64,000 bases of DNA, from the NCBI GenBank assembly GCA_011364925.1, contig RDOA01000002.1, forward strand, positions 1-64,000, in the 5' to 3' direction. Within the stretch, counting starts at the first letter, position 1. Every line of letters starts with the position of its first letter. This stretch comes from Promethearchaeota archaeon (GTDB lineage Archaea; Asgardarchaeota; Lokiarchaeia; Sigyniarchaeales; SOKP01). The notes under the pieces were generated by a model. That model ran no database searches. It was not told the DNA's origin and worked only from the letters and a program-made list of their open reading frames with translations. The position numbers were made by a program, and so were the translations under genes. Shown here one piece after another: positions 1-9,105 of the stretch.

Positions 1-263
1 AAGCCAAACTCTTTCTTTATTATCATTTCTGCTTTTCTTAAGCTTTTTAGTTCTAATACATTTGCTTCAATTCCAATTGCTATGCCCCCTTCTTTTTTGA
101 TTTCAATTGCTAACTCTTCAGCCGCTTTTTTTCGCAGATCAAGTATTGCAACTTTAGCGTCACAACTTGCGAGAGCTTTAGCAAAATTTCCACATAATTC
201 TCCAGCGCCACCGGTTATTACGACCGTTTTTTCTTTTAATTCAATTCTAAATGGGACTTTCAT
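1..263 (-). CDS. SDR-family oxidoreductase, N-terminal part (D-mannonate oxidoreductase-like), cut by window edge
   Basis: Only the first 87 residues lie in the window; the gene runs off the left edge. The start is ATG at 263, with a strong GGAGAT ribosome site five bases upstream. The protein opens with a Rossmann fold: TGGAGEL near residues 18-24 matches the SDR nucleotide-binding TGGxGxL pattern, followed by the usual acidic residue after the second strand (AILDL). The N-terminal layout resembles the SDR-type mannonate/fructuronate oxidoreductases (UxuB/YjmF group). It starts 45 bases after the IolM-like dehydrogenase on the same strand, so the two are probably one operon for polyol or hexuronate breakdown. 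SDR membership is firm; the substrate is inference. Confidence 0.7.
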   Translation of the reverse strand, partial: MKVPFRIELKEKTVVITGGAGELCGNFAKALASCDAKVAILDLRKKAAEELAIEIKKEGGIAIGIEANVLELKSLRKAEMIIKKEFG

Positions 264-308
264 ATGGATCTCCTAGATTGTTTTACTTTTATACTATTAC
301 AATTGACT

Positions 309-1517
309 TTACTTAATAACAGTCGAGATTTTGCAATTTACTTTGTCCGTCTGTAATAACTTTATATTCTCTGGAACCTCGTTAAGAGTTATCTCTTTCG
401 TAATCATGGGAGTAACATCCATACCCGCTGCCATACAACTGATTACGTTAGGAAATGTGCCATGTCCTGAATGTCCTTGAGCGCCAACGATTCTTGCTCT
501 TCTAACTTGGAAATATTCTCCACACACTGGCATTCTCTGTTCCGCTCTGGCAACAACCACTACAGTACTATTAATTGCTTTGCATTCCCATATAGCATTT
601 TGTATATCTTCAGTACATATTTCAGGTAAACCTGCCGATTCAAGATAAAGAGCTGCTCCTTCATTGTCTGTAAATTCCTTAACCTTTTCTACAAAACTCT
701 CTTTTAGAGGATTTATGACGAAATCAGCACCCATTTTCTTAGCCAATAAAGCTCGAGGTTCTGATGGTTCTGAAATAACACATATTGCAGCTCCTGCCAT
801 TTTCAAAATCTTTATTGCCGCTAATCCAATTGGTCCCCCACCAAGAATTACTACATTTTCTCCCGGGCGAATTCCACCACCTCTCTCTATAACTGCATTA
901 TAGGCTACTGATGTTGGCTCAACTAAACTACCTATTTTGTAAATGTCTTTATATTTATCTTCTAATTTTTTTAAACTCCAACATAGTTTTGCCGGAACCG
1001 CAATATATTCTGCGAATGCTCCATCTATTGAGAAGCCAATCTCTTGTAGTCGTTCGCAGTGATTTGGATATCCATCACAACACGGTTTACATTCACCGCA
1101 CCATACCATTTCTTCAACTGTTACCGGTTCTCCTGTTTCGAAAGGTTTACCTGTTCTTTTACTTAATGCACGATTTCCTACTTCTACAATCTCTCCAGAA
1201 AATTCGTGACCAATCGTAACAGGAAAAGCAGTCAATCCTGGGTAATAGATATATCCATCTTCGTAGGCTTGGTTCATATGGACATCTGAACCACAGATTT
1301 TGTTCATTAAAAGATTTTTTTAATGAATTCCACAACGCTTAACTTTAATGAGTACTTCATTATCTTTAATTTTCGGTTTATCCTTATCAGTTAAACGAAC
1401 TTGTGGGTCTTTCCATACCTGTGAACCAAGATAAGTAAGTTTTCCCTTAATATCCTTAGACCCGATCTTAAAACTTGGCTTTGGATCCCATTTTGCACTT
1501 AATTCTACTGCTTTCAT
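309..1517 (-). CDS. iolM: Zinc-dependent dehydrogenase, scyllo-inosose 3-dehydrogenase (IolM)-like, interrupted by an in-frame stop
   Basis: Medium-chain zinc alcohol dehydrogenase oxidising a cyclic polyol ketone with NAD. The reading frame is read as 1517-1320, then TAA at 1322-1320, then open again in the same frame to 309. Joining without the 30-nt segment 1325-1296 gives 392 residues and restores the catalytic motif CGICGSDVH around residue 65. Other family marks are intact: GHE at 93-95, structural-zinc cysteines 130, 133, 136 and 144, and a GGGPIG dinucleotide loop near 185. The length and the whole sequence strongly recall Thermotoga TM0412 (about 395 residues). No lesion other than the 30-nt segment is visible, which argues against simple decay. 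The second half alone would start at ATG 1307 without a ribosome site and lack the first 64 residues. Confidence 0.8.
1296..1325 (-). other. 30-nt in-frame hairpin interrupter (element 1) in the iolM-like gene
   Basis: On the coding strand this segment sits between codon ATT (Ile, 1328-1326) and codon TGT (catalytic Cys, 1295-1293). Its second codon is TAA. It begins with the arm CATTAAAA, a five-base loop AAATC, and the arm TTTTAATG; with two flanking bases on each side the stem is a perfect 10 bp (1327-1303). A nine-base unpaired tail AACAAAATC follows. Removing exactly 30 nt restores CGI+CGSD. The last codon of the segment is ATC, also Ile, so takeoff at ATT and landing at ATC would suit a bypass. 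I see no bulge-helix-bulge pairing between segment and flanks. Confidence 0.75.
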
Positions 1518-1551
1518 TTAATTCACTTTACTAAGATTTTGATAGCTTAAT

Positions 1552-1565
1552 ACTTATAAAAATTT
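1552..1565 (-). promoter_or_regulatory. Candidate TATA box of the iolM-like operon
   Basis: On the minus strand an AT-rich TATA-like motif (TTTTTATAAG) lies about 40 bases upstream of the ATG at 1517. This spacing would put transcription start some 10-15 bases before the start codon, which suits archaeal promoters. Judged by eye only. Confidence 0.4.
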
Positions 1566-1695
1566 AAATTAGTAGGAAAAATTTGTTAAGTTGAATTCTC
1601 CATTTCATTAAGATAATCAAATAAAAAATTAAGTAAAAATCATCTTAATAAACTCATTCTAGAAAAGCGAGAGTATTAAAAAAAAAAAAATTTAT

Positions 1696-3102
1696 TTACA
1701 GAATACTTGCTTTCTTTTTTTCATGCATTTCTGTAAGCTTTGCTCTATTTTTTTTAAGGCGTTCTCCTTTTATCGGAAATAGGAACATCCCAATTAAAGA
1801 CAGTGCAAGAACTATACCTGGATAAATTCCCATTAAAAATCTAAGACCCGCAATAACATCGACTCCCGGATTAGGGGTATAATCCATCCAATTTGTTGAA
1901 GTAAAAACTAGATTGATCATAACGAAATTAAAAATCATCGATAGTCTTATTAGAAAGTTGAGAACAGCATAGTATATACCAGAACGTCTTACTCCGGATG
2001 TAATTTCGTCTTCGTCAATGATCTCCGCGATGCACTGATCGTAGAAGTAAAGTCCACCACCTAAACCAAAACCAAAGAACATCATGAATATTAAAGCCAT
2101 CCAAAAATCAACCGAGTATGCGAAAAGCACAACTGATACTAACCATACAGAAATTCCTATTAATCCACAAAATCGAGCACCCTTTCTGACTCTTATTTGT
2201 TCCCATAATGGGGTTGAAACAGCAGCTACAAGAAAAGTAACTAAAAGGAGTATCCCAATCAATTCAGTGTCAGTAATACCAACAGCATATACAAAAAAAA
2301 GAGGAGCTAAGGTTGGCAAAATGTTAATCACTAACCAAGTACCGAGAGCTGGAAATAAGAACCATAAAAACGATTTGTGTTTGAAGGTAAATTTAATCGT
2401 TTTTATAAATGGCATCGCATTTTCTGCATCTTTAGAAAGATGTTTGGGATCTTTCACTCCCCATTTTAAAATTAGGAAGTAAAAAACAAATATGATGATC
2501 CCTGCTGCAATTCCGGTAATAAGATATTGAGACATAGTTATATCGACGTTAGCAGGATTGCTGTTTGTTATATCATCAATTATAAACGTAGGGAATGTTA
2601 ATGCAAACATAGTCGCTAGCAGAGTAAATATTATACGAAATCTTCCTGTTGAACTACGGGTCCTCATGTCAACAAACATTTCAGAGAATAGCGCATTATA
2701 ATTTAAGTTAAAAGCGGTATAGGCAAAATCAAATAATATCAGAATGATAAGGAAGTAGACGAAAACCAATTGATTTGTATCATAAGTTCCCGGAGGAGTA
2801 AACAAGAGAATCATTAAAATGCCGAGTGGTATGGTAGCACCAATCATCCATGGGATCCTTCTCCCCCATCTGCTTTTAGTTTTGTCAGAGAGGTATCCAA
2901 TTAATGGATCATTAACTGCATTCCACAAAGCCCAGAGTATAAAACCGATAGTCATTATAGGACTAGGAATGTCAATAACAGCGAAATAAAAAGTAAAAAC
3001 TAAAAATGAAAAAGTGTTAAGCGCCACATTATCTCCGACTTCTCCACAAGCAAAAGCTAATCTCGTGCCTAAAGACATTTTTTGAGGTCTTTCTTCATTC
3101 AT
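1696..3102 (-). CDS. GPH-family sugar:cation symporter
   Basis: Membrane transporter of the glycoside-pentoside-hexuronide:cation symporter family (MFS fold), 468 residues with about 12 hydrophobic segments. The diagnostic stretch after the second membrane span is present: WNAVNDPLIG then SDKTKSRWGRR near residues 60-85. I chose ATG at 3102 because AAGAAGTGAT lies just upstream; a TTG six codons earlier (3120) is possible but has no clear ribosome site. It lies between the inositol-type dehydrogenase and the divergently read epimerase, so it probably imports their sugar, polyol or uronate substrate. A second GPH transporter sits at 58353-59804. The substrate is inferred from neighbours only. 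Confidence 0.85.
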   Translation of the reverse strand: MNEERPQKMSLGTRLAFACGEVGDNVALNTFSFLVFTFYFAVIDIPSPIMTIGFILWALWNAVNDPLIGYLSDKTKSRWGRRIPWMIGATIPLGILMILLFTPPGTYDTNQLVFVYFLIILILFDFAYTAFNLNYNALFSEMFVDMRTRSSTGRFRIIFTLLATMFALTFPTFIIDDITNSNPANVDITMSQYLITGIAAGIIIFVFYFLILKWGVKDPKHLSKDAENAMPFIKTIKFTFKHKSFLWFLFPALGTWLVINILPTLAPLFFVYAVGITDTELIGILLLVTFLVAAVSTPLWEQIRVRKGARFCGLIGISVWLVSVVLFAYSVDFWMALIFMMFFGFGLGGGLYFYDQCIAEIIDEDEITSGVRRSGIYYAVLNFLIRLSMIFNFVMINLVFTSTNWMDYTPNPGVDVIAGLRFLMGIYPGIVLALSLIGMFLFPIKGERLKKNRAKLTEMHEKKKASIL

Positions 3103-3227
3103 ATAATCACTTCTTTTCAAAATATTTATAAATAAAAATAAATGGCTTTTTGATCTTTAAAAAGCTTTCTACTATTAACAAAACTTTGAGATTTAATTAG
3201 CTATCATTCTTATATTAAGTTAATATT

Positions 3228-4040
3228 ATGTTACTCAGCATAGTTTCAGGGCTCGAGGAATCTAAAAGTAGTCCAAATGATGTGAACAAGAAATTTACTT
3301 ATTTATGTCGATATCTTAAATCCTTGAGTTATGATGGGATTGAGTTAAGTCTTTTAGAACCTGAAAAAATAGATGTTAAGGGGATTATAGAGCTACAAAA
3401 CTCGTACGATATGAGAATTTCTGCTTTAGGAACTGGAAGTACTTTTATTCGTTTTGGATACTCTCTAGGCGATCACAGAGAACCAATTCGCAAAAAAGCG
3501 ATCGAAAGAGTCGAGAAATATATTGAATTCGCTCGAGAGACTCAATCTAAAGTCATTATAGGATTAATACGGGGACGTTATAAACACGAAAGTAATCCTC
3601 AGAAAGAACGCTTAAATATTATCTCTTCTCTTAAAGAATGTTGTTCGATAGCAGAAAACAGCGATGTTCAACTATTATTTGAACCAATTAATCGTTTCGA
3701 AATTGATTCTTATCACACAATTTCAGAATCTTTAAAATTGATTAAGGAAATAGGCTCAAGTAACTTGAAATTACTAATAGATTCTTATCACACCCACTTG
3801 GAAGAAGATCCCGTTTATATTTGGGAATACCTTAAAGAAGTCGTACATTACGTAGGTCACATTCATCTTGCTGATACAACACGTAGAGCACCTGGTTCAG
3901 GACATTTTGATTTTAAAACATTTCTAAATATTTTAAAAACTCATGGGTACTCTGAATTCGTTTCGATTGAAACTATAATGAAACCCTCTTTTGAATTAGT
4001 TGCTAAAAATTCAAGTGAATATTTAAGACAAATTTTATAA
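3228..4040 (+). CDS. iolO: Sugar isomerase/epimerase, 5-keto-L-gluconate epimerase (IolO)-like
   Basis: TIM-barrel enzyme of the xylose-isomerase-like/AP-endonuclease-2 superfamily, 270 residues. Metal and substrate residues are visible in order: EPINR (Glu about 150), DSYHTH (Asp about 183, His about 186), HIHLADTTRRAPGSGHFD (His about 210, Arg about 216) and the closing Glu in SIETI near 247. The sequence closely recalls Thermotoga TM0416, which epimerises 5-keto-L-gluconate to D-tagaturonate in inositol breakdown; even IGLIRGR and APGSGHFDF agree with what I remember of it. It is divergent from the GPH transporter and follows the IolM-like gene nearby. The superfamily is certain, the exact reaction probable. 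It ends one base before the convergent hydrolase. Confidence 0.75.
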   Translation: MLLSIVSGLEESKSSPNDVNKKFTYLCRYLKSLSYDGIELSLLEPEKIDVKGIIELQNSYDMRISALGTGSTFIRFGYSLGDHREPIRKKAIERVEKYIEFARETQSKVIIGLIRGRYKHESNPQKERLNIISSLKECCSIAENSDVQLLFEPINRFEIDSYHTISESLKLIKEIGSSNLKLLIDSYHTHLEEDPVYIWEYLKEVVHYVGHIHLADTTRRAPGSGHFDFKTFLNILKTHGYSEFVSIETIMKPSFELVAKNSSEYLRQIL

Positions 4041-4877
4041 TTAGAGATGATTATCTAACCAACTACTAAGATCGTTAAGAACTTTCTTTCGTTCTTCTTT
4101 AGATTCGTTGTATACTTCATGGTACAATCCATCGTAAATCAATATTGATTTATCTTTCATTTTGAAAGCGTTTTTTAGTGCTTCTTCAGATCCCTTAATA
4201 AGAGAATCCTCGGCACCACATTGAACTAATAAAGGTAATTTCAGGTTCTGGGTGATTGGATCAAATTTTGAAAAACAATTCATTAGTTCCCATCCTAATC
4301 GAAGTGCTATTTTATCAGCATTAACCAGCGGATCATTTTCATATGCTTGGACGACTTCTGGGTCGTGGCTTAACTTTTCAGCTTTAAGTCCAGGATTTAT
4401 GTATTTCTTTGGAATAATTTTTGCTAAGAGCTTTACTACTACTTTTGTAGCTTTACTTGTACTTTCTCCCGCTCCTGTACCCGTACCTGATAATATCAAG
4501 CCTTTTAATAGAGATTCATATTTATTTGCAAAGAACAATGCTATCATTGATCCCATCGAGTGTCCTAACATAAAAATTGGCAAATTTTGATATTTATCCT
4601 TTATTAAATCATAGAATAATTTTTCGTCCTCAATAAACTGATTAAAAGAATCAACATAATTTCTTCTTCCTTCGGATTTTCCGTGTCCACGGTGATCGTT
4701 AGCATATACCGCATAATCTAAAGGTAATAATTGATTCACTATATTAAGATATCTTCCTGAATGCTCAGCAAATCCATGAACCACTTGAACTATTGCCTTA
4801 GGATTGTCTGGTATCCATGCTTGATAATAAATTGTTAAACTCTCTATTCCTTCAAACTCTCCTTCGATGTGCTTCAT
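4041..4877 (-). CDS. Alpha/beta hydrolase, monoacylglycerol lipase-like
   Basis: Soluble serine hydrolase of the Hydrolase_4 (monoglyceride lipase/lysophospholipase) group, 278 residues. The oxyanion-region motif HGFAEHSGRY is at 34-43, the nucleophile elbow GHSMGS puts Ser at 108, Asp is in GAEDSL near 218, and His is in LYHEVYNE near 250. The triad is complete. It has no signal peptide, so it probably acts in the cytosol on acylglycerol-like or other ester substrates. It is transcribed alone, converging on the iolO-like gene with no gap. In an organism presumed to make ether lipids, the true ester substrate is open. Confidence 0.85.
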   Translation of the reverse strand: MKHIEGEFEGIESLTIYYQAWIPDNPKAIVQVVHGFAEHSGRYLNIVNQLLPLDYAVYANDHRGHGKSEGRRNYVDSFNQFIEDEKLFYDLIKDKYQNLPIFMLGHSMGSMIALFFANKYESLLKGLILSGTGTGAGESTSKATKVVVKLLAKIIPKKYINPGLKAEKLSHDPEVVQAYENDPLVNADKIALRLGWELMNCFSKFDPITQNLKLPLLVQCGAEDSLIKGSEEALKNAFKMKDKSILIYDGLYHEVYNESKEERKKVLNDLSSWLDNHL

Positions 4878-4930
4878 ATAAATCTCACAATTTAATTAAG
4901 ATTATACATAGAACAAAAATAAATTTATTT

Positions 4931-6058
4931 TCATTTACTATGCAATTTTGCACATTGCAATCCTGGAGTGACGACAGTGGATAAGCAACTACTACAGAAT
5001 ATACAATCCACTTCATCGTTTCCAATCCCATTCATCCATCGATTAGGAAGATTTGGCTCTCTGATTAAGGGTCTAGCAAAAGACACGAAATCAGCACTTT
5101 CGTTATTTAATATATTTTTTACAAGACTAAGTGAGTTAATACCACCAACCAAAATAACGGGTATATCCAAAACTTTCTTGAATTCTTTGGCATATGGTAA
5201 ATTATAAGCAGGTTCATTCACAGTTCCTATAAGTATTCGACTTTCTGGTAAAAAAGTTGGCTTCCAACCAAGATCTTTCTTTTTAAGCGTAGCTACTTCC
5301 CAAATTCCTCCACTTACTTCGATAGCAGAATATCCTATTTTTTCTAATCTTTTAGCAACTTTAGTAGATTCCTCTATGCTCGTTCCACCTTCTACAAAAT
5401 CAACCGCGTTTAATTTTATAAAGATCGGAAATTCCTTTTCAACTAAATCCACGCTTGTATTATAAATTTCTTCAAGAATTCTAATTCTATTATCAATACT
5501 TCCCCCATAATCGTCCGTTCTTTTGTTAATATAAGGAGAGAGAAATTCGGAAATGAGATATCCGTGAGCACCATGTATCTGAACAGCATCAAAACCCGCT
5601 TCTTTTGCTCTTCTAATTGCTTGCGAGAAAGCATCAATAATATCTATTATTTCTTTTTTAGTCATTTCGCGTGGAATTTTTCTAGTTAATTTTTCCTCCA
5701 GGGCCGACGGAGCTATCGTATTCTCGAGGCATCTAGATTGACGACCACTATGAGAGATTTGTAAAGCAACCTTACAATTTTTGCTATTTTTGTGCACCAC
5801 ATCAGCGATTTTTCTCAATCCATTGATATATTTATCATCGCTAACCCCTGTTTGTTTATCAAACGCTTTACCATTCTCATGAACGTACGCATGACCTGTG
5901 TTTATTAACCCAACTCCTCCTTCAGCTAATTCTTTGTAGAGTGTTATGTGTTTATCGGTTATATAGCCGTCCTCAGTTGCCATCCCCTCGAATGTTGCGG
6001 ATCGTACAAAACGATTTTTTATTTCCATTGAACCTATTTTCTTAGGTGACGAATACAT
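4931..6058 (-). CDS. NADH:flavin oxidoreductase, old-yellow-enzyme family, with C-terminal Cys cluster
   Basis: FMN-binding TIM barrel, 375 residues from ATG at 6058, which has AAGGTAG six bases upstream; an ATG nine codons earlier (6085) lacks a ribosome site. Family marks: NRFVRSATFEG at the start, QISHSGRQ, the catalytic pair in QIHGAHGYLISEFLSP, the NKRTDDYGGS loop and the phosphate-binding GGI/FARP segments. The C-terminus carries CIFCSSC and a further Cys ten residues later, as in the 4Fe-4S-bearing 2,4-dienoyl-CoA reductase/TMADH branch, but the protein ends there, without the FAD/NAD domains of that branch. It probably reduces an activated C=C bond. The substrate is unknown. Confidence 0.88.
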   Translation of the reverse strand: MYSSPKKIGSMEIKNRFVRSATFEGMATEDGYITDKHITLYKELAEGGVGLINTGHAYVHENGKAFDKQTGVSDDKYINGLRKIADVVHKNSKNCKVALQISHSGRQSRCLENTIAPSALEEKLTRKIPREMTKKEIIDIIDAFSQAIRRAKEAGFDAVQIHGAHGYLISEFLSPYINKRTDDYGGSIDNRIRILEEIYNTSVDLVEKEFPIFIKLNAVDFVEGGTSIEESTKVAKRLEKIGYSAIEVSGGIWEVATLKKKDLGWKPTFLPESRILIGTVNEPAYNLPYAKEFKKVLDIPVILVGGINSLSLVKNILNNESADFVSFARPLIREPNLPNRWMNGIGNDEVDCIFCSSCLSTVVTPGLQCAKLHSK

Positions 6059-6204
6059 ATTTCTACCTTTTTGTATATATTGCATTTTTTGATAATAATT
6101 GATTTTGGCTTCTTATAAATCTTTTTTATGAGGGGTATTATTATTATGGTTTTTAATTAGCCAAATATTACATCTAATTATATTAAGCTTAGAGGTAATG
6201 TATC

Positions 6205-6768
6205 ATTAGAAAAAGATTAGAACAAGGACTTGTTCAAGTTTATTTTGGTCGGGGCAAAAATACTATATAGATAATAGTATTGTCTACAGGCAAGACCACT
6301 GCGGCAATAGGACAAGGCTTGAGAGCGACGGGGCATGGATTTAAGGTGTATATGATTCAGTTTATGAAGGGATACCCTCAATACGGTGAGGTTAAAGCGA
6401 TAGAAAATATCGCAAACTTCGAATTGAAACAATTCGGCACTCCAGACTTAATCGCAACTCCTGGAGAGATTGACTATGAAGAGGGAAGGAAAGGTATGGA
6501 ATTTGCAGAGCAAATTATTATGAGTGACGAATACGATATAGTTATTCTAGACGAGATTGGCGTAGCAGTCGAGTATGGGATTGTAGATATAAACGATTTT
6601 TTAAAATTAATTGACAACAAACCCGAAAAGGTCGAACTAATTATCACTGGAGGCCCTAAGATGCATCCTAAAATCAAGGAACGAGCAGATTTACTCACGG
6701 AAATGAGAATGATTAAACACTACTATTCCTCAAAAGGTATTAAGGCTCGTTTTGGTATAGAATATTAA
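6205..6768 (+). CDS. cobO: Cob(I)yrinic acid a,c-diamide adenosyltransferase (CobO/CobA/BtuR type), interrupted by an in-frame stop
   Basis: ATP:corrinoid adenosyltransferase that makes adenosylcobalamin. The P-loop of this family reads GxGKGKTTAA. Here GRGK (6247-6258) and GKTTAA (from 6289) are in the same frame but separated by 30 nt containing TAG at 6268. Without it the protein is about 177 residues, the usual length. Downstream marks are intact: MIQFMKG, the Walker-B-like DIVILDEIG and a final TGG region. Upstream the frame reads RKRLEQGLVQVYFG, as expected for the family, but has no ATG, GTG or TTG. The best-placed start is ATT at 6205 (or ATC at 6202), eight (or five) bases after GAGGT at 6192-6196. 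Read conventionally from TTG 6280, the protein would lack half its P-loop. Confidence 0.8.
6259..6288 (+). other. 30-nt in-frame hairpin interrupter (element 2) in the cobO-like gene
   Basis: This segment sits between AAA (last Lys of GRGK) and GGC (Gly of GKTT). It starts with arm AATACTAT (6259-6266), loop ATAGATA (6267-6273) and arm ATAGTATT (6274-6281), a perfect 8-bp stem, and ends with the tail GTCTACA. Its fourth codon is TAG, at the stem-loop junction. Deleting exactly 30 nt restores the family P-loop; because the flanking base is A on both sides, the boundary is ambiguous by one base. Length and architecture match element 1 at 1296-1325, while the sequence does not. Confidence 0.75.
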
Positions 6769-6789
6769 TGAAGTAAGGGGAATTTAAGC

Positions 6790-7923
6790 GTGGGAACTAA
6801 AAACATTATTATTAAAAATGTATTCTTTGATCATGATAAATTTCTTGGAAGACGGGAAAATTCACTTAAGATATATAATTCACCGCCCGGAAAAATGGTT
6901 CTCTCACCATTTAATTTAACATTCGATTCTATCCTTAAATTATTTGTCCTTAATTTTGATAATGATCCAATTTATTTCCGTATAGAGTTACAAATTACAC
7001 GCTTAAGAGATAAAGATTGCCCACTTGTAATCTTATATCGAAAAGATAATATGGTGGATATTTACTACACCAACGAAGATGTTATAAATACCCGAATGAA
7101 TTTGCTCAGAGCCCTATTTGAAAAGGTTTCTTTCAACCAGCTGGAAACTATCGAATATTATTTCCAATTCGATGATAGGGGTTTAGATGCGTATCTTTTT
7201 CTAGAAGATAAGTTAGAAAAGGAAATTGAAATTAAAGTTAATGAGAATTACCCTAATAGAGAATTATATACAATTTTGGCTCCGATGGGCGTTATAAGTA
7301 AGAAACCAAAATATTTCCCTATCGTATTCCTTAACAAATTTGGAATGGTCTTGGAAAAAAATACAGAAATCTTTGTTAGAATTCATGGGGAATATAGAAA
7401 CCTTATAGAAATGCCTTTTCAAATCAATGGGATGCAGGTTTATCCAGGACATTTCTCTTTAAATCCAATTGTCTGCAATTGGAATAAAAATGCTAGCAAC
7501 GACATTAGTCCAATAGTTCTAAATCCACCTTCACTTACCATCTCGGAGAACAATATTAACCTCGCCCTCAAAAATAACTCTAATTATTACGAGATAAAAG
7601 AAATCTCTTGGAAAGATCAAAATAATCAGATTGTTTCTTTTGAATTTTCCCCCGCAATTCCAAATTTAATATCTTTAAAGAACAATTCGAAAGTAAAAGG
7701 CAGGTTTTCTTGTGAAATAAATGAAATGAAAGGAGTGTTTGGAGGAGCCTATAATATTAGTCGTTCTGGGAATTCCATCGAGATTAGAATTGCACCCACC
7801 AAAGGATGGCAACTTTCATCAGGAAAGTTATGGTTGGAATCTTATACTTGGAAGGCAATAATACAAATCGAAGATGATGGTAATTTTAAAATTAATTCTT
7901 ATTGGCGTAGAGTCCCAGGTTGA
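6790..7923 (+). CDS. Hypothetical protein, mostly beta-strand, soluble
   Basis: I do not recognise this 377-residue protein. It begins with GTG at 6790, nine bases after GGGG, and follows the adenosyltransferase by 21 bases on the same strand, so it may be co-transcribed. There is no signal peptide or membrane segment. The sequence alternates short hydrophobic and polar stretches typical of beta sandwiches, and its second half has several predicted strands ending in GNSIEIRIAPTKGW and a Trp-rich tail. No cysteine cluster or nucleotide motif is visible. A function linked to cobamides is only a guess from position. Confidence 0.6.
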   Translation: MGTKNIIIKNVFFDHDKFLGRRENSLKIYNSPPGKMVLSPFNLTFDSILKLFVLNFDNDPIYFRIELQITRLRDKDCPLVILYRKDNMVDIYYTNEDVINTRMNLLRALFEKVSFNQLETIEYYFQFDDRGLDAYLFLEDKLEKEIEIKVNENYPNRELYTILAPMGVISKKPKYFPIVFLNKFGMVLEKNTEIFVRIHGEYRNLIEMPFQINGMQVYPGHFSLNPIVCNWNKNASNDISPIVLNPPSLTISENNINLALKNNSNYYEIKEISWKDQNNQIVSFEFSPAIPNLISLKNNSKVKGRFSCEINEMKGVFGGAYNISRSGNSIEIRIAPTKGWQLSSGKLWLESYTWKAIIQIEDDGNFKINSYWRRVPG

Positions 7924-7935
7924 TGCGATATTTAG

Positions 7936-9105
7936 TTAGTAAAACTTTCTTTCAGGAAAAGGATCCATAATATCTCGAATTTTATTTTTCACATTGTTAT
8001 AGTCTTTTAACGAACCAGTAAACTTAGTAGAAACTACATCTTTTAGATACAAATAAAGAAATGATTCCAGAGATTCCAAAATTTCAAGATTTCCTTCAGT
8101 AATGCAATATAAAAAGAATTTATTTTCGAGTTTTTTAAACGATAAATAACGATATTTCTGGAAACCTAATTTTATTGAAATCCACCTCGGATAACCCCTC
8201 ATGTTAGCAAGAATAGTTGCTAAAATCACTTCTATTTTTGCAGTTGCGACTGATTCGCTAAAATCAATAACTTGCTTAACGACTTCAGATATATTTTCTT
8301 CAGAATCAGGTTTAAAGAATTTTTGTTCCCCAAATTTTAGGATGTTCTCTCGATCTAAAAGAAGTGAAATAACACCTACAAATTCAGATGATAATCCAAT
8401 ATAATGTAATCTAAGCCAATTATCGATATAATCGAAATTAGGCTTTTCAAATTTAACTTTTAATTCAACTTCTTCTTTTATATTATTTAAAAATAGATTC
8501 ATTTTGAAAGAAATCTCTCGTTTGTCAATATCGTCTAACTTCCTAATGTCAATTTTATTTTTCTGCAACATATCATTGAAAAACATTGATACTTGATTGA
8601 ATATCCAATTACTATCTTTGTCTGAAAAATTACCTATGAGAATGTGTATGATCTTCTTTTTCTCATAAAATCGCGCAAGCAAATTTTCCTCTTCATCCTC
8701 AGTGACGTCCCCAAGTATTATAAGCATTTTATCAAGCGTTCCAGACAAGGTGCTAGTAGAGATAATGTCTAAATCGTTAGTTAACTCTAAAAAATACTTC
8801 CATTTTTTGTCACTATAATATAACGGAATTCTGTCTTTCGAAACAATTCCGTAAAAATATAATGCTTTTTTGCCTTTTTCCTTATTTTTTTTCTCCGTTC
8901 CTTTTGCTTTTTTACTCGGAATTGGTTGTAATTCCGTGGACTTCACACTATTATTAACATTCTCATTCCCATATCTAAAACGGAAAAGTTCCAGCGAAAA
9001 AAGTTTGCAATTACTACATGTACAATCCTCATTATAAGGCAGAACATGTAACTTTCCACAGTGTTCACACTTTACGCGATTAGAACTTCTCTCTTTGTTT
9101 TCCAT
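7936..9105 (-). CDS. Zinc-ribbon protein with possible longin/roadblock-like region
   Basis: About 389 residues. The N-terminus has CEHC and, after 14 residues, CTCSNC, a likely zinc ribbon. A lysine/glutamate-rich linker follows, then a domain starting ALYFYGIVSKDRIPLYY, which recalls the first two strands of longin-like domains common in Asgard archaea (a strand ending in a small loop, then IPL and aromatics). The rest is unassigned and helix-rich. I prefer ATG at 9105 because a TATA-like TTTAAATA on the minus strand (about 9152-9165) would place transcription start after the upstream TTG (9153) and ATG (9144). The longin reading is tentative. It converges on the orphan gene at 6790-7923. 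Confidence 0.55.
   Translation of the reverse strand: MENKERSSNRVKCEHCGKLHVLPYNEDCTCSNCKLFSLELFRFRYGNENVNNSVKSTELQPIPSKKAKGTEKKNKEKGKKALYFYGIVSKDRIPLYYSDKKWKYFLELTNDLDIISTSTLSGTLDKMLIILGDVTEDEEENLLARFYEKKKIIHILIGNFSDKDSNWIFNQVSMFFNDMLQKNKIDIRKLDDIDKREISFKMNLFLNNIKEEVELKVKFEKPNFDYIDNWLRLHYIGLSSEFVGVISLLLDRENILKFGEQKFFKPDSEENISEVVKQVIDFSESVATAKIEVILATILANMRGYPRWISIKLGFQKYRYLSFKKLENKFFLYCITEGNLEILESLESFLYLYLKDVVSTKFTGSLKDYNNVKNKIRDIMDPFPERKFY

Follow-up and report, generated by a model that had tools for sequence, protein, structure and literature searches.

Candidate BHB-type mini-introns in protein-coding genes of Lokiarchaeota

The window examined here is a 64-kb stretch of a 3.92-Mb Lokiarchaeota genome. 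Lokiarchaea belong to the archaeal group closest to eukaryotes, and all sequences compared in this study are metagenome-assembled genomes. Two genes in the window, which lie on opposite strands with 5 kb between them, are each broken by 30 nt that include a stop codon. The minus-strand gene (309..1517; exon 1 at about 1329-1517 and exon 2 at about 309-1298) codes for a zinc ADH resembling scyllo-inosose 3-dehydrogenase, as judged from profile matches and from intronless orthologs. Its insert (1298..1327, minus strand) carries a TAA and interrupts the zinc motif CGI|CGSDVH. The plus-strand gene is cobA/btuR (6199..6768; exon 1 6199-6257, exon 2 6288-6768), which encodes ATP:corrinoid adenosyltransferase. 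Here the insert (6258..6287, plus strand) contains a TAG and divides the P-loop FGRGK|GKTT.

When the inserts are left out, both products are whole. The joined ADH protein of 392 aa matches NCBIfam NF041097 at 501.8 bits (cut-off 450), and its Pfam ADH_N match runs across the junction. The joined cobA product is an intact protein of ~177 aa that belongs to one family end to end, with positions 1-172 of PF02572 covered at 187.7 bits and the junction spanned. An earlier note on this DNA had raised the concern that these might be dead copies of genes kept intact elsewhere; no second cobA and no second intact ADH were found among the matches in the same genome.

Each insert contains a perfect hairpin. 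That of ADH, TTCATTAAAA-AAATC-TTTTAATGAA (1303..1327, minus strand), has 10 bp and a 5-nt loop, and that of cobA, AATACTAT-ATAGATA-ATAGTATT (6259..6281, plus strand), has 8 bp and a 7-nt loop. The earlier description of two stop-bearing 30-nt elements with such hairpins inside active-site motifs is thus confirmed at 1298-1327 and 6258-6287. Perfect 8-bp hairpins have 18 starts in the 64 kb (9-17 in Markov controls). Because they are this rare (0.28/kb), the occurrence of two exactly at the two gene breaks is not due to chance.

Relatives that lack the inserts at the same sites prove that these are insertions. Within the genus, 13 of 21 members carry the cobA insert and 4 of 10 carry that of ADH. 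The cobA gene of the same genus can be uninterrupted (e.g., L003, L006, and L009), or can hold a stop-bearing insert of 30 nt (L011-L016) or an insert of 29 nt (L017, L019-L023, L025), and other genera have cobA inserts of 29, 30 or 31 nt (L101, L103, L104, L105). The ADH insert is present in four species and is missing from most orthologs, including eight among the matches listed (L032-L037, L041, L042). In genome G021, where cobA and ADH are syntenic, neither gene is interrupted, and in G009 the two genes lie on different contigs. A length of exactly 30 nt that preserves the frame, proposed earlier as a rule, does not survive this comparison. With inserts of 29 and 31 nt in cobA, and of 37 nt in an acyl-CoA synthetase gene described below, the reading frame is continuous only once the insert has been removed.

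The cobA gene tree requires eight changes of intron state, at least seven of which are forced by well-supported branches. The loop GATTTAG is similar in L012, L013, and L103, which suggests a single old cobA intron that has been lost many times. For the 174 Asgard genomes that have cobA, the interrupted copies among the matches listed all belong to one family.

Substitution patterns in the exons are those of functional proteins. Between intron-bearing cobA genes, the median dN/dS of exon 2 is 0.075, with many pairs at about 0.03-0.07. The window's ADH gives 0.08-0.12 for exon 1 and 0.04-0.05 for exon 2 when compared with other intron-bearing copies, and values of 0.41-0.88, which rest on few sites, are seen for exon 1 between very close copies. 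Judged by these ratios, the exons are under strong purifying selection and the genes are in use.

The structure of the cobA element becomes apparent when relatives are aligned. The four exon nucleotides GGGC (6252..6255), located directly 5' of a 3-nt bulge, pair with GTCT (6282..6285), the four nucleotides directly 3' of the hairpin, and thereby form a 4-bp central helix. Therefore, the 7-9-nt tail that had been taken as unpaired pairs instead with exon sequence immediately 5' of the hairpin. In all 16 distinct cobA sequences, GGGC, GGGT or AGGC pairs with GTCT, GCTT or GCCT, and all four pairs vary. Overall pairing in the BHB structure is 94.5%, and five of the eight inner-hairpin pairs are changed on both sides among relatives. 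The covariation score of these helices was reached by none of 500 shuffles of the 16 sequences, and pairing falls to 29-53% when the partners are displaced by 1 to 3 columns. The window's own central helix includes two G-U pairs, and its predicted pairing probability is low (0.15-0.21). The proposal that unrelated genes share one interrupter architecture, in which structure rather than sequence is kept, is correct.

The mature cobA protein also fixes where the RNA would have to be cut. The 5' bulge AAA (6256..6258) and the 3' bulge ACA (6286..6288) are divided as AA^A and AC^A, and the general pattern is GGY AA^N...NN^R GG, with a Lys codon always produced at the junction in the 16 distinct sequences. 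At the 5' bulge the third position is free to vary (L103 reads AA^T) and is therefore intronic; at the 3' bulge the third position is invariably A or G, as expected for the wobble position of a Lys codon, and is therefore exonic. Lys is restored in L103 and likewise in L101 and L105, which have ^G. Because mature cobA needs this codon, the cuts must fall 2 nt into both 3-nt bulges. The BHB motif has a 3-nt/4-bp/3-nt layout (PMC6379350), and introns of cbf5 are cut between the second and third bulge nucleotides (PMC2738675). The cobA cuts implied by the codons obey that same rule.

The ADH element fits this model less well and is treated only as a relaxed BHB. Its position follows a GGAA^ convention, since cuts after GG, GGA, GGAA or GGAAT all yield an identical product. 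The hairpin covaries in L038-L040, with one pair double-changed. Pairing in relatives identifies the probable central-helix partners (1299..1335, minus strand) as TTGTG in the exon (1331-1335) and ACAAA in the intron tail (1299-1303). Relatives pair TGTG with CACA, CATA or CAAA, and every sequence forms 4 bp in one of two registers. The MFE fold of L040 is a BHB in which CGC:GCG forms the outer helix and TGTG:CACA the central one, and in which the bulges measure 3 nt on the 5' side and 4 nt on the 3' side; in this register the frame is kept only by cuts displaced by one or two nucleotides from the canonical positions. The window's own ADH has a mismatch in the L040 register and pairs TTGT:ACAA instead. 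With four sequences, too small a set for this purpose, covariation is not significant, as 143 of 500 shuffles reach the score. Relaxed BHB motifs are cut by two-subunit EndA (PMC6379350).

A third gene emerged from an all-against-all search for split genes. In Lokiarchaeota BC3 (L091), an acyl/acetyl-CoA synthetase gene carries a 37-nt insert inside YWQTE|TGWP, and its removal according to ACCG AA^A ... CGGT AC^A restores Q-T-E-T-G-W. The central helix ACCG:CGGT is perfect and the cut rule is that of cobA. The cuts lie 2 nt beyond the helix on each side, the 5' bulge is longer than 3 nt, and the MFE fold lacks the ACCG:CGGT helix. One of the five closest orthologs has the insert, which is absent from G024, G077, G046, and G045.

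The genome that contains the window also encodes proteins suited to such processing. There are two EndA paralogs, one of which (C29) has the Tyr...His...Lys residues (VVYRKGPGLEHSPF...SVRKKF), while the other (C22) lacks the His. Apparently, the pair consists of one catalytic (alpha) and one structural (beta) subunit, which points to an enzyme of the (alpha-beta)2 type. A gene for the RtcB ligase is present. Furthermore, introns between 8 and 63 nt long are predicted in tRNA genes of this genome (L173, L249, L247, L196), and that of tRNA-Thr shows the CTTG...CAAG pairing typical of BHB.

We consider it very probable (roughly 86%) that these protein-coding genes contain very short introns of the BHB (tRNA) type, which EndA and RtcB remove from pre-mRNA. 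In the pre-mRNA, exon 1 and the 3' portion of the insert would form the 4-bp helix on which the inner hairpin stacks, with a short bulge remaining at either exon-intron border. The two-subunit EndA would cut in both bulges, and RtcB would join the exons to restore the catalytic motif and the reading frame. That cleavage and ligation occur in cells is something we infer from genomic sequence, as is the same processing for the ADH element, which departs from the canonical geometry by one or two nucleotides.

The earlier note left open whether such elements are bypassed by ribosomes or removed as mini-introns, and it is the latter option, RNA removal, that has gained. In programmed translational bypassing, known from T4 gene 60 and the byp elements of Magnusiomyces, the ribosome leaves a take-off codon and resumes at a matching landing codon beyond a hairpin. 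The elements described here share with those systems a stop codon and a hairpin within an ORF, the hairpin being at the 5' edge, and matching codons exist as ATT/ATC in ADH and as AAA...AAA or AAG in 5 of the 16 cobA elements. However, in the other 11 the landing codon (ACA, ATA, AGA) differs from the take-off codon, and the synthetase has no match at all, because GAA would have to land on TAC. L103 has AAT (Asn) before the gap, yet every mature cobA needs Lys. Moreover, covariation between exon 1 and the insert tail is not expected for bypassing, which we regard as very improbable. The idea that the genes are decaying, with products lost to disabling inserts or with the downstream part made from a restart codon, is similarly hard to maintain. 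An in-frame ATG (ADH) and TTG (cobA) do lie within the window's own inserts, and ADH exon 1 shows elevated dN/dS when very close copies are compared, but these restart codons are not kept in relatives. The exons are intact and conserved in 13 or more species for cobA and in four for ADH, dN/dS is otherwise far below 1, compensatory changes maintain the hairpins, and, as noted above, another intact copy was not found among the matches in the same genome.

Hairpins, a patchy distribution, and short flanking repeats (TGTGG and GGCAA) could also be the marks of small mobile DNA elements, such as IS200/IS605-like or PATE-like remnants, that insert beside short repeats and are removed at the DNA level. 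This option, which had been raised earlier, has lost ground: neither insert has a second copy in the 3.9-Mb genome with up to three mismatches allowed, the flanking repeats correspond to codons in the repeated motifs GK-GK and CG-I-CG, and across species it is structure rather than sequence that is kept. We regard it, too, as very improbable. Group I and group II introns have a catalytic RNA core of hundreds of nucleotides; inserts of 29-37 nt are too small for them, and positions 1-9000 of the window gave no Rfam match.

Protein-catalysed splicing of archaeal mRNA as such has a precedent. In 2002, Watanabe reportedly described BHB introns in crenarchaeal cbf5 pre-mRNA. The earlier note knew of no archaeal bypass system, but archaea do have a system that would account for the inserts, namely the BHB-type pre-mRNA introns of crenarchaeal cbf5 (Yokobori 2009, PMC2738675). 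The candidate introns resemble these in their BHB or relaxed BHB form, cuts between the second and third bulge nucleotides, insertion at catalytic codons, lineage-specific loss, association with a two-subunit EndA, and small size (36 bp in Staphylothermus). They differ in phylum (Lokiarchaeota, Asgard), in the genes affected (cobA, ADH, and acyl-CoA synthetase), in their length of 29-37 nt, and in that cbf5 splicing has cDNA proof whereas splicing here is predicted from genomic sequence. With the introns of archaeal tRNAs they share the motif and the presumed enzymes, but the host RNA is an mRNA. Inserts that are likewise tiny and located in archaeal protein genes are the putative introns of an archaeal virus, although these are given as only 12 bp (Peng et al., as cited in PMC2738675).

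The only gene for which splicing of mRNA by the tRNA endonuclease is so far established is cbf5 of Crenarchaeota, and searches of the open-licence literature, preprints excluded, turned up no description of mRNA introns from Asgard archaea. With BHB-type introns in Lokiarchaeota, the archaea nearest to eukaryotes would have a second type of mRNA splicing, one catalysed by proteins, in metabolic genes where it has been repeatedly gained or lost. It would also follow that genuine genes of these organisms are split or cut short by gene callers. A more doubtful extension is that Lokiarchaeota maintain a living population of mRNA mini-introns that are gained and lost at catalytic motifs, perhaps through RNA-level reverse splicing of EndA/RtcB products. 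If so, the synthetase intron would be a recent gain, and mRNA splicing without a spliceosome would have operated in the lineage that is closest to eukaryotes.

Two further features of cobA genes deserve mention. Upstream of the P-loop, the window's copy has no in-frame ATG, GTG or TTG (6199-6210 reads TGT ATC ATT AGA), and the same is true of L062 and L068, which suggests an AUU/AUC start or some other N-terminal peculiarity. In addition, two cobA copies have in-frame stops without the usual extra length, namely G063:C22:46683-47186 and G055:C317:9336-9869 (one TAG in one copy, a TAG plus a TAA in the other).

Such introns seem rare, perhaps a few per genome by our estimate. The scan for further cases covered 1.39 Mb of the host genome, about a third, and did not reveal the excess with a length peak at 30 nt that had been anticipated. 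The split-gene search compared several hundred gene places with a homolog over ~2.2 Mb (this 1.39 Mb together with ~0.8 Mb from two relatives plus flanks), and recovered introns only in cobA, ADH, and acyl-CoA synthetase. Among the matches listed, no more intron-like copies were seen in the AMP-binding family, nor any intron-like interruption in Lokiarchaeal TruB/cbf5. An ab initio scan for hairpins at ORF junctions had its signal drowned by operon gaps. A scan for canonical BHB motifs gave 69 real hits, with cobA at rank ~6, against 29 from a decoy that alters base composition, and further cases were not separable. The remaining split-gene matches were assembly gaps (N), low-similarity noise, or selenocysteine TGA codons. 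HdrA-like genes of the host genome, L192 (~874), L048 (~13081), and L054 (~1587), have a TGA in CWK*GY that probably encodes selenocysteine, and a Lokiarchaeal Sec system is known from work cited in PMC8211752.
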